64,000 nt of DNA from contig NZ_JAVDDU010000001.1 in NCBI RefSeq assembly GCF_030848505.1, positions 1-64,000 on the forward strand, given 5' to 3'. The notes below the pieces were generated by a model. The model had not been told where the DNA came from and searched no databases. It saw only the letters and a program-made list of their open reading frames with translations. Below, piece after piece: positions 3,744-11,201 of the stretch. The stretch comes from Marinimicrobium hydrolyticum (GTDB taxonomy: Bacteria > Pseudomonadota > Gammaproteobacteria > Pseudomonadales > Cellvibrionaceae). Position numbers and translations under genes: made by a program. How positions within the stretch are numbered: position 1 is the first letter of the stretch; each line of letters opens with the position of its first letter.

Positions 3744-4400
3744 TTGAGCAAAGCCCCTACTTGCCGATACCTTGAAGAGCGGCTTTGGTCAGGGGGCGCC
3801 CGCTATAAAGGGCATATACGAATTCATTCGGAGGGGGTTGCGGTGGGCTTTGCCGACGACAATAAGGATCTGGTGTGGGATCTAGACGCGTTCAGCCAAC
3901 GCCGGAAAGCGACGGACTTTGTCATGGGCTTTGAAAACAAGCTCTGTGTGTATTCCGGCGCGGTGGAGCAAATCTACACCAACTACAATATCTTCTTTCC
4001 TAAGGAAGAAGAGCGCAAGCTCGTGATTCTCCCTAACCCCTATGCGCCTCATGATACCTTCAACGGCATCCCCCAGGAGGCGGTGAGCGCGACGGGTCTG
4101 TACATAGTGCCCGGAAGAGTGGGGGATAAAGATGGACTGCTGCTCAGAATTCCCTTTCGCAGCGGTAACTCCAAATTCCGCACGGTTCCCCTGCAAGTGG
4201 GTTTACGAGTGGTTGGTCAGAGCCGCACACCGGATCGGCCATTGTTGCCGGTGTTAATGAAAGGTGATTTGCGGGAATTGAACGCCGATACCCCGTGCTT
4301 ACATTTGCACACAATTCAGCTGGATCAGTTGGAAAAGCATTCTATGTTGGAGCGAGACAGTCTGCGCAAGGTCATTCAGCACCATTTAGGCAGGCTTTAG
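3744..4400 (+). CDS. Conserved-looking hypothetical protein
   Basis: A soluble-looking protein of up to 218 residues that I do not recognise. It has no signal peptide or membrane helix and looks like a beta-rich fold. The start is uncertain: the longest frame begins at a TTG (3744) without a clear ribosome site, 13 bp after the previous stop, while a GTG at 3843 sits 6 bp behind GGAGGGG (3830-3836) and would give 185 residues. The N-terminal part (KGHIRIHSEGVAVGF) reads like coding sequence, so the longer form is not excluded. It is the last gene before a convergent hairpin. Confidence 0.65.
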   Translation: MSKAPTCRYLEERLWSGGARYKGHIRIHSEGVAVGFADDNKDLVWDLDAFSQRRKATDFVMGFENKLCVYSGAVEQIYTNYNIFFPKEEERKLVILPNPYAPHDTFNGIPQEAVSATGLYIVPGRVGDKDGLLLRIPFRSGNSKFRTVPLQVGLRVVGQSRTPDRPLLPVLMKGDLRELNADTPCLHLHTIQLDQLEKHSMLERDSLRKVIQHHLGRL

Positions 4401-4446: not shown

Positions 4447-4469
4447 GGGAGGCGGCCAAGCCGCCTCCC
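4447..4469. terminator. Hairpin between convergent genes
   Basis: A perfect 10-bp stem (GGGAGGCGGC / GCCGCCTCCC) with a 3-nt CAA loop lies between the gene ending at 4400 and the minus-strand gene ending at 4477. There is no U-tract on either side, so it is not a textbook intrinsic terminator, but its position between convergent genes suggests it marks transcript ends. Confidence 0.5.
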
Positions 4470-4476
4470 AAAAGGA

Positions 4477-5643
4477 TCAATCCGGCAATATAAAGTTGAA
4501 GGGTACTGCGAACTCGTACTGACGCCCACCAATGGCACTGGGTACTTCTGGGAAGGGGGCCGCGGCAGAGACGGCGTCCAGAGCGGCCCGGTTGAGCATC
4601 GAGAAGCGGGACTCTTCAAGCACTTCCGTACTGATAATTTGCCCCGCCCGATTGATCACGACAGATACCCGTACTTCACCTTCCTGGTTGCGCTGCATAG
4701 CGCGACGTGGATATTCAGTCCGGCTTTGAATTTCGCGCAACAGCGAAGAAAAGTAGACTTGTTGGGCGCGCAGCGACTCCGCCGTTAACATGGGCTCGTC
4801 ATCTTCCTCTTCTTCCACCACTGGCGCGGGTTCAGGCTGAGGTTGCGGTCTTGGTCTTGGCTGCGGCTCGGGTTCCGGTTCGGGCTCTGGTTCCGAGGCG
4901 CGCAAATCCGGGCGCGGGATGTCCAGGGCAACAGCCGGCAAGCCGATACCAATGTCCGGCCTGGGCGCTTCGCGGCTGGGCGTGGGTTCTGAGGCTCGGG
5001 CGGTTTGCGCGGGCTGTGCGGGCTCTGGTGGTTGGGTCCAGGCAATCAACTCTTCGCGTCGACTATCAGATGGCTCTATGCTCTCAAAACGCCGACGCAA
5101 ATCTGAAGATACGTCCCCAGCCTGCAACAGGCTGGCCCGATAGGCGGACGAAAGCGGGACATTACCGATCCAGGTTCTGAGCAAAACATTAAAAAACTCG
5201 TCGCTGCCGATGGTGCCGAGGGCAACGTCGTTAATGGCGATGAACACCCCATCCCCCGGCTCCAGACTAAAGGTGATCACATCGTTCTTTTCCAGGCGAC
5301 CTTTAAACAGATTGGAGAAGGCCACCATATTGTCGGCCTGCTCATTCAGAACGGTGCCACTGTTGTTAATGGCCACACCTTCAATCCACATGCGGCTGAA
5401 GCGGCGCGCGGTAATGCCATCATCCGCCGTAATACGCAGTTCCATGCGCTTGCGGCCGTCGGAAGACAATATCTGATTTCGGTCGCTGCTGTAGGATTGG
5501 AGGTAGAGGGCGCCAATGAATTGTTCATTGCCCAGCTCGTTATGGACGGCCAAGCCGTTCAATTGAGTTGCCGCCCAGAGGCCACTGGCCCAGAGCGAAC
5601 ACAGGAGGCCGATCAAGGCCACAAAAGCAGTGGATCTACGCAT
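4477..5643 (-). CDS. Exported chalcone-isomerase-like/TonB-C protein
   Basis: A 388-residue exported protein with an unusual architecture. Residues 1-25 are a signal peptide ending in a GLWA-A type cleavage site. Residues 26-180 resemble the bacterial chalcone-isomerase-like domain (FIGALYLQSYSSD, MWIEGVAINN, PGDGVFIAINDVALGTI, LLRTWIGNVPLSSAYRASLL). Residues 200-290 are a Pro/Glu/Arg-rich linker with EPEPEPEPEPQPRPRPQPQP. The last 90 residues are a TonB C-terminal domain (YPRRAMQRNQEGEVRVSVVI). True TonB keeps an uncleaved N-terminal anchor; here a cleavable signal is predicted, so the protein may be free in the periplasm. The role is unknown: a structural or partner-binding use of the TonB fold is as likely as energy transduction. 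Confidence 0.85.
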   Translation of the reverse strand: MRRSTAFVALIGLLCSLWASGLWAATQLNGLAVHNELGNEQFIGALYLQSYSSDRNQILSSDGRKRMELRITADDGITARRFSRMWIEGVAINNSGTVLNEQADNMVAFSNLFKGRLEKNDVITFSLEPGDGVFIAINDVALGTIGSDEFFNVLLRTWIGNVPLSSAYRASLLQAGDVSSDLRRRFESIEPSDSRREELIAWTQPPEPAQPAQTARASEPTPSREAPRPDIGIGLPAVALDIPRPDLRASEPEPEPEPEPQPRPRPQPQPEPAPVVEEEEDDEPMLTAESLRAQQVYFSSLLREIQSRTEYPRRAMQRNQEGEVRVSVVINRAGQIISTEVLEESRFSMLNRAALDAVSAAAPFPEVPSAIGGRQYEFAVPFNFILPD

Positions 5644-6034
5644 AGTTCTGTTCCCGAAATTATTTTATTGCGCTCGGGCTGAGGGCGCAGCCCAATATTC
5701 AGGTTTCAGCCCCAATCACCTGGGTTGCCCCAAAGGTGAACGCCCCGGCGTCTAAAACCTTACTCTCTGCCCTTAATAGTACATCAAAGTCCACATTTTT
5801 GGAGAAAAATCGATCTATTTTTGTGCAATTATCATATTTACTGCTGCCCCTTCGCGCCTTTTCGTTAAACCTTTTGCGTTAATTGGGGCCGCGCGGTTGT
5901 CAGTGCTGGCGCCGCGACGCTATGATGCTTCCTGCGCACACAGCGAGCTGATCCAGGGGGACGTCCCCGCCCCCTGGAATCAAGAGATCCAATAATAAGG
6001 GCTGTTTTTAGCAGTCAGCCGGCCAGGAAGAGCA
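5644..6034. other. Divergent intergenic region with a hairpin
   Basis: This 391-bp gap separates two divergent genes and must hold both promoters. The middle (about 5790-5880) is AT-rich. A hairpin with an 8-bp stem, CCAGGGGG at 5953-5960 and CCCCCTGG at 5970-5977 around a 9-nt loop, sits 58 bp before the cNMP-domain gene, probably inside its leader. I see no gene or RNA family here. Confidence 0.5.
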
Positions 6035-6706
6035 ATGGAAATCAGACCCCTGCAAAAGTTTCCTCGCGATAAGCTGGAGCAATTGTTGCTCACCGTTCCC
6101 TTCTACAAATCAATCAAACAACAGGATAATTGGCAGTTTGAAATCTTGCTGCAGCACTCCAGAATCGCCTGTTTTTCTCCTGGTGAAGTGGTTCTGCAGC
6201 GTGGTGAGCGTGATCAGTGGTTGTATTTTTTACTCAAAGGCCGGCTGCAGGTGTTCCCCGATGAACTATGTCAGGGTGAACCGGTAAATTTGATTACACC
6301 GGGTGAGGTATTCGGTGATCTTGCCATGTTAGTGGGGAGTGAGCGTACCGCAACGCTCATTGCTGACCCCAGTTGTCGAGAGGTCATGGTATTTGCATCG
6401 GACTTCCGGGTATTTGGCGATTTGGAAGCCATACAGCCCATCAGCTTGCAGACCAAACTTACCTATTATCGAAACACGGTGCATAACCTTCGCTGGAAAT
6501 TGGAGGTGTACCGCTCCCAGAATCCGCAGCACAGCTTCGCCAACAAGCATCGGCAGGTGAAACTGTACACGGGCGTCAAAGGTACACTGGAAGAGCTGCG
6601 AGCCTTGCACGCGCAAGCCCAGGCTTTGGCGCGCCTGTTGTTGGAGTGGAACGGCGAGTTTGGCAACCGGGTTGCCACCGACGCCACTGCCCAAGCTCCT
6701 GACTAG
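6035..6706 (+). CDS. Cyclic-nucleotide-binding domain protein, no HTH
   Basis: A 223-residue protein with a cNMP-binding domain at about residues 35-135: FSPGEVVLQRGERDQWLYFL, a core glycine-rich turn and the phosphate-cassette-like stretch GEVFGDLAMLVGSERTATLI. The remaining 90 residues are helical and basic and show no winged-helix DNA-binding domain, so this is not a CRP/FNR-type repressor. It is more likely a stand-alone sensor or a scaffold. The ribosome site AGGAAGAG is 3 bp from the ATG. The gene lies 64 bp ahead of a PilZ protein, which hints at nucleotide second-messenger signalling. The ligand is not known. Confidence 0.85.
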   Translation: MEIRPLQKFPRDKLEQLLLTVPFYKSIKQQDNWQFEILLQHSRIACFSPGEVVLQRGERDQWLYFLLKGRLQVFPDELCQGEPVNLITPGEVFGDLAMLVGSERTATLIADPSCREVMVFASDFRVFGDLEAIQPISLQTKLTYYRNTVHNLRWKLEVYRSQNPQHSFANKHRQVKLYTGVKGTLEELRALHAQAQALARLLLEWNGEFGNRVATDATAQAPD

Positions 6707-8275: not shown

Positions 8276-9082
8276 TCAAGCGGTTTTAGCTTTCGCCCGA
8301 GCTTTGCGCGCGCGTTTAGCGGTCGCTTTCTTGGCGGGCCGCTTGGCGGTTGCTTTTTTAGCGGTGCGCTTGGCGCCTGCTTTCTTAGCTACCCGCTTGG
8401 CTGGAGCTTTTTTAGCGGTCGCTTTGCGAGTGGTTTTCTTGGCTGAAGGCTTTTTCTTGGTGGTCGCTTTCTTGGCGACGCGCTTGGCCCGAAGTGCAGC
8501 CTTCTTCTCAGCGGCTTTTTGCCGTGCGGCAGCCTTTTTGGCGGCTACTTTGGCACGGGCGGCAGCGGCTTTGGCCTTGGCTTTGGCTTTAGCAGCGGCT
8601 TTCTTGGCCCGGACCTTGGCTTTGGCGGCAGCTTTCTTAGCGGCGGCCTTGGCTTTGGCGGCTTCTTTGCGAGCAGCCGCTTTTTGCCGCTTGGCGATAG
8701 CAGCTTCAGCCTTGGCTACAGACTTCTCATGCTCGGCAGCCATCTTGTTGGCTGCTTTGATTGAGGCCAATTCCTGCTTAGCGCTGGCCAGGTTGGCCTT
8801 AACTGCGTCGGAAGCCTTCTTAGCAGCAGCTACGGCTGATTTGGCAGCAGCGGCTTGCTTGGCAGCGGCGGGGGTTTTCTTTTTCTTGGCAGCGGCCAGT
8901 TTGGTGCGGGCAGCCTTAAGTTGTGCTGTTGCTTTGGTTGAGTCTTTAGTGGCAGACGTAACCGCTTTTTGAGCGGCCGCTTCCTGCTTGGAGCGAGCCT
9001 TAACAAGTTGAGTCTTCAGTTGTGCCAGTTGTTGTTCCAACTGAGCGACATCATCAACCGCTTTTTGTTTGCGTGCAGCCAT
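8276..9082 (-). CDS. Histone H1-like Lys/Ala-rich protein (AlgP-like)
   Basis: A 268-residue very basic protein. Residues 1-110 form a helical region with an N-terminal coiled coil (VDDVAQLEQQLAQLKTQLV). From about residue 115 to the end it is almost only Lys, Ala, Arg, Thr and Pro in short KKAAAKAKA and AKKATAKR type repeats, like the tail of histone H1 and of Pseudomonas AlgP/AlgR3, a DNA-binding regulator of alginate genes. It most likely coats nucleoid DNA. An ATG at 9091 is in frame, but AAAGGA sits directly against it and 8 bp from the ATG at 9082, so I use 9082. The repeat tail is prone to length change between strains. Confidence 0.85.
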   Translation of the reverse strand: MAARKQKAVDDVAQLEQQLAQLKTQLVKARSKQEAAAQKAVTSATKDSTKATAQLKAARTKLAAAKKKKTPAAAKQAAAAKSAVAAAKKASDAVKANLASAKQELASIKAANKMAAEHEKSVAKAEAAIAKRQKAAARKEAAKAKAAAKKAAAKAKVRAKKAAAKAKAKAKAAAARAKVAAKKAAARQKAAEKKAALRAKRVAKKATTKKKPSAKKTTRKATAKKAPAKRVAKKAGAKRTAKKATAKRPAKKATAKRARKARAKAKTA

Positions 9083-9440
9083 GGTGAGCATCCTTTATTT
9101 TGTTTTTGAAGTATCTTAAAAGAACTAGTAGGTCGAACGGCTACTAAGTTAAAACTTTGTGGCGAAATTTCAAGTTTTTTAACGCTATTTGGGTAAAAAA
9201 AATGGTTTTTTTTGCTCTTTTTTTTAAAAACCGAATGAATTCTTAGTTTTTGGGGCAAATCCGAGCCCGCACAGTAAATTTTTATGATTTCGTGAGTGTC
9301 TGCATAAAAGCCATTAATGGGTTTAAAAAGGCGCTGAAGTTTAGTGATCACAATGTGTCGCAACCAGGACGATAGCTGTATATAATCCCAGTAAAAGTGG
9401 TGCTTTGCACCATGCAGTATTGACTAAAATGAAGGTTTAA
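9083..9440. other. AT-rich divergent promoter region
   Basis: This 358-bp gap between the AlgP-like gene and dinB is far more AT-rich than the surrounding DNA. Homopolymer runs dominate 9170-9235: eight A at 9195-9202, TGG, eight T at 9206-9213, then eight T at 9218-9225 and five A. Such tracts bend DNA and favour nucleoid-protein binding. The right part carries the dinB operator. No gene is supported. Confidence 0.6.
9376..9391 (+). promoter_or_regulatory. LexA (SOS) box of dinB
   Basis: CTGTATATAATCCCAG fits the gammaproteobacterial LexA consensus CTGT-N8-ACAG with one mismatch in the right half. It includes a TATAAT that may be the -10 element, so LexA would block the promoter directly. 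It lies 49 bp upstream of the dinB ATG, as expected for an SOS gene. Confidence 0.65.
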
Positions 9441-10556: not shown

Positions 10557-10775
10557 GGCGCCAAACTATTGACGCCTGAAGGCCATGTAAGGGCTGATTT
10601 GTCCCGCAAGGCTCTTTGCTGGCGACCTGTAGCGTGGCGTAGAAATTGGTGGTCAGGGGGCGGCGAAAACTGATAGTATTCGCGATTAGCTTTATCGCTA
10701 GCAAAGCCGGTGGGCCTTCAAGCCCGCTAATAAAGCCCTTTTCAGTTGACAGATAACAAACGGGGAGTAAGCGCG

Positions 10776-11201
10776 GTGAGACGAAAGAAAGGCCGTAGCC
10801 AAGACGAAAGCAATGACATCGACCTGACACCCATGCTCGATGTGGTGTTCATTATGCTGATTTTCTTTATTGTGACGGCATCCTTTGTGCGGGAGATTGG
10901 TATTGATACCAATGTGCCCGAAGACACCGATCAGCCGCCACCGACCGATGCGGATCCCAATATCGTTGTGCGTATTACCCGCGATAACCAAATCTGGATG
11001 GAAAACCGCCGGGTAGAAGAGCACGCCGTGCGCTCTAATATTGAGCGTATGCGCGCGGAGCTGCCCGAAGCCACGGTAATCGTGCAAACTCATGGCGATG
11101 CCCATGCAGGCACCTACGTTGCCGTTGCTGATGCCGCCCGCGAGGCTAGGGCGCCGTCCGTAGTGCTCGTGCCTATGGATGAGCGCGGCGCTGCTCGCTA
11201 A
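10776..11201 (+). CDS. ExbD/TolR-like biopolymer transport protein
   Basis: A 141-residue ExbD/TolR family protein, the proton-channel partner of ExbB/TolQ/MotA-type complexes. The single membrane helix carries the family motif DIDLTPMLDVVFIMLIFFIV, in which the second Asp of LTPMLD is the proton-relay residue. The periplasmic part follows. The frame is open back to a TTG at 10746, but GGGGAG at 10762-10767 lies 8 bp before the GTG at 10776, and starting there gives the usual MRRKK-type N-terminus. No exbB or tonB gene adjoins it, which is unusual. A strong terminator ends the unit. Confidence 0.92.
   Translation: MRRKKGRSQDESNDIDLTPMLDVVFIMLIFFIVTASFVREIGIDTNVPEDTDQPPPTDADPNIVVRITRDNQIWMENRRVEEHAVRSNIERMRAELPEATVIVQTHGDAHAGTYVAVADAAREARAPSVVLVPMDERGAAR

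Follow-up and report, generated by a model that had tools for sequence, protein, structure and literature searches.

A conserved fusion of a chalcone-isomerase-fold domain and a TonB C-terminal domain, apparently without a membrane anchor, in Marinimicrobium hydrolyticum and its relatives

The fusion gene, its domains and their predicted folds

The stretch of Marinimicrobium hydrolyticum DNA that was analyzed (the window; 64,000 nucleotides) carries on its minus strand a complete gene at 4477..5643, stop codon inside, which encodes a protein of 388 residues. All the parts of this protein are likewise given as minus-strand positions. The N-terminus (residues 1-24; 5572..5643) reads as a signal peptide, by its motif of the signal peptidase I type, and is a helix at residues 2-22 in the structural model. 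It is followed by a chalcone-isomerase-fold domain (residues 27-175; 5119..5565), in which the codon for His34 (5542..5544) occupies, according to alignments, the place of the pocket Arg of the isomerase family. Pfam assigns residues 27-173 to Chalcone_3 (PF16036; 83.8 bits, cut-off 27; 1.9e-23), and profile score and fold together make the domain a member of this family. Next come a helical hairpin with Arg195 (residues 176-203; 5035..5118), seen in the alignment and as model helices 180-188 and 193-203, and a linker (residues 204-285; 4789..5034) that is rich in Pro and Glu (24 and 14, respectively, in 82 residues) and has low pLDDT. The protein ends with a TonB C-terminal domain (residues 286-388; 4480..4788) with a conserved YP at 311-312. 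Here Pfam TonB_C matches residues 309-386 (59.6 bits, cut-off 24.6; 4.3e-16) and NCBIfam TIGR01352 (TonB family) makes the same call (1.7e-16). Both Pfam scores lie far above the curated cut-offs. Hence, the order of signal peptide, beta domain, Pro/Glu linker and TonB C-terminus, which the earlier note had read from the sequence, is confirmed by Pfam, by the linker composition and by the model.

An AlphaFold2 model built from 47 aligned proteins has a mean pLDDT of 87.8; block means are mostly above 90 in both domains and low in the linker. When solved structures were searched with phmmer, TonB C-termini gave the best matches (8.2e-8) and AtFAP1 a weak one (0.69). Foldseek placed plant chalcone isomerases at the top (9.6e-8 and weaker) and the C-terminal domain of Helicobacter pylori TonB at rank 48 (TMt 0.75). 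The matches found by Foldseek were then compared again with VIA-align, which gave Z scores for the pocket domain of 15.7 with a reconstructed isomerase, 14.7 with AtFAP1, 13.6 with Aim18p and 12.5 with Aim46p; for the C-terminal domain the values were 11.6 (H. pylori TonB), 10.9 (Neisseria TonB) and 8.5 to 10.8 (TolA domains). In VIA-align, the pocket domain further matches two chains from plastid FtsHi motor complexes, 8xks_H (Z 11.9) and 8xqw_P (Z 10.5). Profile matching against solved structures gave the best values for H. pylori TonB (1.2e-12) and for HasB (8.1e-12), and both alignments run to the end of the domain. The modeled TonB_C domain has three strands and three helices, and the number of strands is the same as in HasB. 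The chalcone-isomerase-like fold that had been put forward on the basis of the sequence is thus present according to AlphaFold2, Foldseek and VIA-align, and the term "ligand-binding-type domain" used for it is a fair name for this fold.

Upstream, an intergenic region (5644..6034) separates the fusion gene from a divergent gene on the plus strand (6035..6706) for a single-domain cyclic-nucleotide-binding protein (Pfam cNMP_binding, 1.5e-12), a conserved neighbor. Downstream, between convergent genes, there is a perfect inverted repeat at 4447-4469 with 10-base arms and a 3-base loop (found by eye); a terminator scan gave no T-tailed hairpin at this place. Farther away, at 8276-9091 on the minus strand, a Lys/Ala-rich protein of 271 residues has a histone-H1-like make-up by eye, with no Pfam match at 0.01.

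Distribution of the fusion and numbers of TonB-dependent receptors

Near-full-length matches recur in many genera and AlphaFold2 folds both domains; hence, the fusion is a conserved family and not a chance joining. Among the genome matches listed, which were read by hand via coordinates and frame length, at least 90 fusion loci were counted in at least 63 of the 97 genomes of the order. The fusion occurs in at least 53 of the 61 genomes of the host's GTDB family (f1) and in at least 10 of the 36 other families of the order, and at least 24 genomes have two or three copies. For the rows of two alignments (A1 and A3) and for loci L174 to L176, an alignment or a profile confirmed both domains; the TonB part is not seen at the loci in G001 and G086, which are cut by contig ends, and it is not shown for three of the second copies counted (G011:C67, G016:C30 and G038:C23). 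Locus L054 was omitted from A1, while the copy of the same genome enters A3 as L120; L060 was omitted since its C-terminus has no TonB-like look in frame, and L072 is the host genome's own standalone Chalcone_3 gene. Near-full-length relatives are mostly 35-60% identical within the family and about 24-35% outside it. Named carriers (48 loci) include Marinimicrobium agarilyticum and species of Gilvimarinus, Cellvibrio, Teredinibacter, Simiduia, Aestuariicella and Exilibacterium, among others. Marinimicrobium belongs to the Cellvibrionaceae in the NCBI taxonomy; the fusion is common in this family, many members of which degrade polysaccharides. The mean pairwise identity is 0.48 in the pocket domain, 0.44 in the TonB_C domain and 0.21 in the linker, the length of which ranges from 61 to 145 residues in 47 aligned fused proteins. 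In these 47 proteins P312, G322 and G334 of the TonB_C domain are invariant. The small difference in conservation between the TonB_C and pocket domains suggests that the former is under selection.

A tree of 111 domains places the 75 fused ones on one side of a branch and the 36 standalone ones on the other (support 100/100). This single clade fits one fusion event, within the limits set by few columns, long branches and sampling: the standalone rows were drawn from the class search, so closer standalone relatives within the order are absent from the tree. In the class, a Chalcone_3 match was found in 117 of 370 genomes (the host genome and a few others of the order included), mostly in short frames, about 170 to 260 residues long. 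Outside the order, no open reading frame matched the TonB profile in 10 of the 11 class-sample stretches with frames of at least 330 residues (G174 left out); in the stretches L165 to L168, the pocket profile matched no open reading frame either. No description of the Chalcone_3 plus TonB architecture was found in the open-licence literature. Both domains are known; what appears to be new, being absent from the literature searched, is their union without a membrane anchor.

The cNMP-binding gene is divergently adjacent in 40 of the 63 fusion genomes, five of the ten in other families included, with gaps of 251 to 1069 bases between the matches. It is nevertheless dispensable, because 19 fusion genomes have no strong match; nine genomes have the gene and no fusion among the matches listed, and an obligate partnership was rejected. 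In 13 of 40 fused loci a PilZ gene is near. A convergent downstream gene (3744-4400 in the window; 218 residues, no Pfam match) has counterparts near the fusion in 12 of 40 loci. An ExbD gene lies 5.1 kb from the fusion gene (10746-11201; 4.9e-25), with no sign that it belongs to it, and by eye no ExbB-like frame stands out next to it. Genes of the same ExbD group were found close to 9 of 40 fused loci, a count that excludes the locus in the window. According to the available part of one source, tonB is infrequently linked to its own motor genes (PMC12204202). Regulation by Fur was also considered and rejected. The upstream regions of 40 fused genes, up to 400 bases each, were scanned for the best match to a 19-base Fur consensus; at most 5 of 100 shuffles did as well in just four cases (L034, L035, L038 and L047), and for the window's own gene 60 of 100 shuffles did as well; there is no clear excess of Fur boxes. 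Of nine neighbors of divergent copies that were chosen and scanned, two were receptors (L055 and L071), which can be due to chance since there are dozens of receptors per genome; with nine chosen neighbors scanned, no enrichment of receptors beside the gene is claimed. In L055 (7350-13734), the divergent copy ends 300 bases upstream of a TonB-dependent receptor gene, and the next frame resembles a tryptophan-halogenase-type flavoprotein.

Genomes with the fusion hold more TonB-dependent receptors, where the numbers are first-look TonB_dep_Rec candidates rather than scored matches, the fusion status is that among the matches listed and kinship is handled solely by taking one genome per family outside f1. 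Over all 97 genomes, the median is 38 candidates with the fusion (63 genomes) and 6 without it (34 genomes; p=1.1e-10); in the other families, one genome each, it is 21.5 (10 genomes) versus 7 (26 genomes; p=0.003). Inside f1, the medians are 40 (53 genomes) and 3 (8 genomes), with a p of 0.00065 that overstates the case because the losses may amount to about four events (g3, g9, g17 and G057), with each genus counted once. Response regulators were counted as a control: 48.5 with the fusion versus 68 without it in other families (p=0.36), 89 versus 62.5 in f1 (p=0.022) and 84 versus 67 over all 97 genomes (p=0.0098). Genome size, a second control, gave p=0.42, 0.014 and 6.2e-5 for the same three sets, so that inside f1 both controls differ too. 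Per megabase, the receptor numbers still differ (p=0.0053 in other families, 0.00052 in f1 and 4.4e-10 over all 97), and the corresponding values for response regulators are p=0.13, 0.35 and 0.74. When receptors, response regulators and size enter a logistic fit together, the receptor term comes out largest, both over all 97 genomes (1.98, 0.12 and -0.06) and in other families (1.14, -0.50 and 0.33). Seven of the eight f1 genomes without the fusion have 1 to 9 candidates; the contrary case, G057, has 75. Contrary cases of the other kind, with the fusion and few candidates, are G001 (8), G012 (5) and G030 (7).

The earlier note had proposed a periplasmic adaptor that links a small-ligand- or fatty-acid-binding domain to a receptor or to peptidoglycan. 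The receptor counts give the receptor link indirect support; the fatty-acid part of the proposal is weakened (see below). Peptidoglycan, already raised there, leads to a different reading in which the protein would be a scaffold of the envelope: the C-terminal domain would bind peptidoglycan or another TonB-type domain and the pocket a lipid or a protein, without contact to receptors. TonB C-termini may indeed also bind peptidoglycan or each other. Moreover, TonB domains do occur alone, with a signal-peptide-like start, in two genomes of one genus (L186, 6618-7073; L187, 7066-7548). These solo TonB_C frames of 151 and 160 residues (1e-19 and 3.5e-20) sit in flagellar clusters near FlhA and frames that resemble FlhB and FlgA/FlgB, the latter by eye. 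Their existence suggests that a TonB domain may be functional in soluble form and may have other uses as well. However, a scaffold would not be expected to be associated with the number of receptors, and a general flagellar role is unsupported, as FlhA is unrelated to the fusion. We consider the scaffold unlikely. A flagellar role of the fusion itself was rejected (FlhA in 52 of 63 fusion genomes and in 28 of 34 without it; Fisher p=1.0).

The pocket and the N-terminus

For a protein that would act as a soluble partner of receptors, the reading preferred here, the question arises what the pocket may hold. In standalone Chalcone_3 domains, the motif LNGAGIRSKFF aligns with GVGLRKK in AtFAP1, GTGFREK in AtFAP3 and GAGVRG in reconstructed isomerases, the pieces of AtFAP1 and of the reconstructed proteins being weak matches. 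Because of this alignment, the Arg in the motif is taken as the catalytic or ligand-binding Arg of the family. Standalone Chalcone_3 proteins are of the same Pfam family as the fused domain and have signal-peptide-like starts in 11 aligned cases (by eye), but those examined are without linker, TonB domain and hairpin and fall on a separate side of the tree, and the pocket Arg is kept in 33 of 36 (Tyr in two, Thr in one). At this position the 75 fused domains have His (53), Tyr (13), Phe (4), Leu (2), Ser, Asn or Glu (one each) and never Arg. Two residues further on, a Lys in 31 of the 36 standalone domains corresponds to Glu in 54 of the 75 fused ones. Arg195 of the hairpin is present in 74 of 75 fused proteins, and the hairpin is absent from the 36 standalone domains compared. 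The host protein has His34, in a register that comes partly from weak alignments, where both chalcone isomerases and the plant-type fatty-acid-binding proteins (FAPs) have their Arg. In FAPs, this Arg anchors the carboxylate of the ligand. Its replacement makes it unlikely that the fusion protein is an isomerase, and unlikely that it holds fatty acids by their carboxylate as its plant relatives do.

This bears on the fatty-acid part of the earlier proposal, which is weakened by the loss of the Arg. A role in the handling of lipids, with a pocket that binds fatty acids like plant FAPs, would agree with the Z score of 14.7 to AtFAP1 and with the position of the genome's standalone Chalcone_3 gene (C25:45135-45557), about 700 bases from an open reading frame that resembles a cyclopropane-fatty-acid synthase. 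Set against the absence of the Arg in 75 of 75 fused domains and the exchange of the neighboring Lys for Glu noted above, such a role appears quite improbable.

The yeast mitochondrial hemoproteins Aim18p and Aim46p have the same fold (Z 13.6 and 12.5), and the available part of the report on them describes no isomerase activity and a lowered heme binding upon mutation of this Arg (PMC9996372). They differ from the fusion family in that they have Arg where the host protein has His and its relatives mostly His or Tyr, and a TonB domain is not mentioned in the same part of that report (PMC9996372). His or Tyr at this place makes heme a testable idea, no more. In its specific form, the idea would be that the protein is a soluble periplasmic carrier of heme, or of a similar tetrapyrrole or aromatic compound, with His34 or Tyr as axial heme ligand. 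It would dock by TonB mimicry on the inner face of receptors, and a receptor would hand its cargo to the partner bound at its own TonB box. We regard this version as very doubtful.

The adaptor or brake reading presupposes that the protein leaves the inner membrane. In the host protein, a hydrophobic stretch leads into ...GLWA|ATQLNG. This is a small-x-small site, and the first beta strand begins a few residues further on. In 73 of 75 fused proteins a 10-residue window in the stretch has a hydropathy of at least 2.0 (1.96 and 1.99 in the other two), and a candidate signal peptidase site is found 3 to 10 residues ahead of Gly30 in all 75. Of the 75, 70 pass a strict rule in which position -1 is A, G or S and position -3 is A, V, S, T, G or I, and all pass a looser one that also permits L, C or F at -3; the five others need Leu at -3. 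The strict rule is weak alone, because 66% of the sequences still pass after their last 13 residues have been shuffled. Stronger than the rule is the conserved Ala at the putative cleavage site (A24 column), present in 43 of 47 aligned proteins. Beyond residue 90, three of the 75 proteins have a 19-residue segment with a hydropathy of 1.61 to 1.67; in two of them it falls in an Ala-rich linker, in the third it lies in the last strand, and these segments are not read as membrane helices. The proposal that the protein is anchorless is consequently favored, at the level of sequence, over an N-terminus that stays as an uncleaved transmembrane anchor such as TonB energy transducers have, and we infer that the signal peptide is cleaved. 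The spacing S-x3-H-x6-L-x3-S, which we take from E. coli TonB, occurs in none of the 75 fused proteins, yet also in none of the four other TonB_C proteins of the same genome; hence, this test is uninformative. A motor-binding S...H...L...S box in the TonB anchor is named in the available part of PMC12204202. That the protein is instead a conventional TonB powered by ExbB/ExbD, with one more domain in the periplasm and held in the inner membrane by its N-terminal helix, would suit the hydrophobic helix 2-22, the TonB-like linker and C-terminal domain and the weakness of the small-x-small rule, but with the possible cleavage site after the hydrophobic stretch in 75 relatives (70 by the strict rule), the Ala in 43 of 47 and an anchor that would be tied straight to a folded domain rather than to the linker, we find this reading very unlikely.

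Proposed role and comparison with known TonB proteins

TonB is regarded as a force transducer that must sit in the inner membrane. Without an anchor there, the fusion protein could not transmit force, which would leave an adaptor or a brake. Moreover, the canonical TonB and TolA roles look covered in the host genome, as its four other TonB_C proteins each have an N-terminal hydrophobic stretch as for an anchor (by eye). We therefore propose, with about an even chance of being right, that the fusion protein binds a ligand and acts, soluble in the periplasm, as an adaptor or brake on TonB-dependent receptors, for which cleavage, binding to the TonB box, the ligand and the direction of the effect are our inferences. 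The protein would be exported, lose its signal peptide and stay soluble in the periplasm. The chalcone-isomerase-fold domain would offer a pocket without catalytic function to a small and mostly hydrophobic molecule. The Pro/Glu linker, which fully extended would measure about 25 nm for its 82 residues (with an assumed rise per residue), would allow the TonB-type domain to extend as far as the outer membrane and, on its inner face, to pair with TonB boxes of TonB-dependent receptors. As an adaptor, the protein would take up or sense the imported molecule at the receptor; as a brake, it would compete with anchored TonBs, possibly gated by the ligand. A soluble protein with a TonB domain that meets receptors and a pocket that meets a ligand is the simplest reading that uses every conserved part. 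The interpretation that the earlier note had given is supported in part: the fold and the signal-peptide-like N-terminus agree with it, the receptor link gains indirect support and the fatty-acid part is weakened. If the proposal is true, receptors have un-powered partners in the periplasm, which serve naturally as brakes, as sensors or as acceptors of what is imported. To our knowledge, little is known for most substrates about what takes over the cargo on the inner side of a TonB-dependent receptor.

A study from 2001 is said to provide a precedent for a soluble TonB domain that acts as a brake. With TonB energy transducers, including HasB of Serratia marcescens, the fusion protein shares the TonB_C domain (score above the curated cut-off and a fold match), the YP motif and a Pro-rich linker of the kind able to span the periplasm. 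It differs from them in that it is, by its sequence, without a membrane anchor and has an extra folded domain between export signal and linker. HasB, a TonB paralogue with a dedicated receptor, has been modeled with the receptor's TonB box beside its third strand, according to the available part of PMC3602595. Another TonB protein with a non-standard N-terminus comes from Teredinibacter turnerae, which is of the same bacterial family as the host. As described in the available part of PMC10734418, this protein, TonB1a, likewise departs from the standard start but differs from the fusion in having four predicted transmembrane helices; the same source counts four TonB genes in T. turnerae, and the word chalcone is absent from its main text as available.
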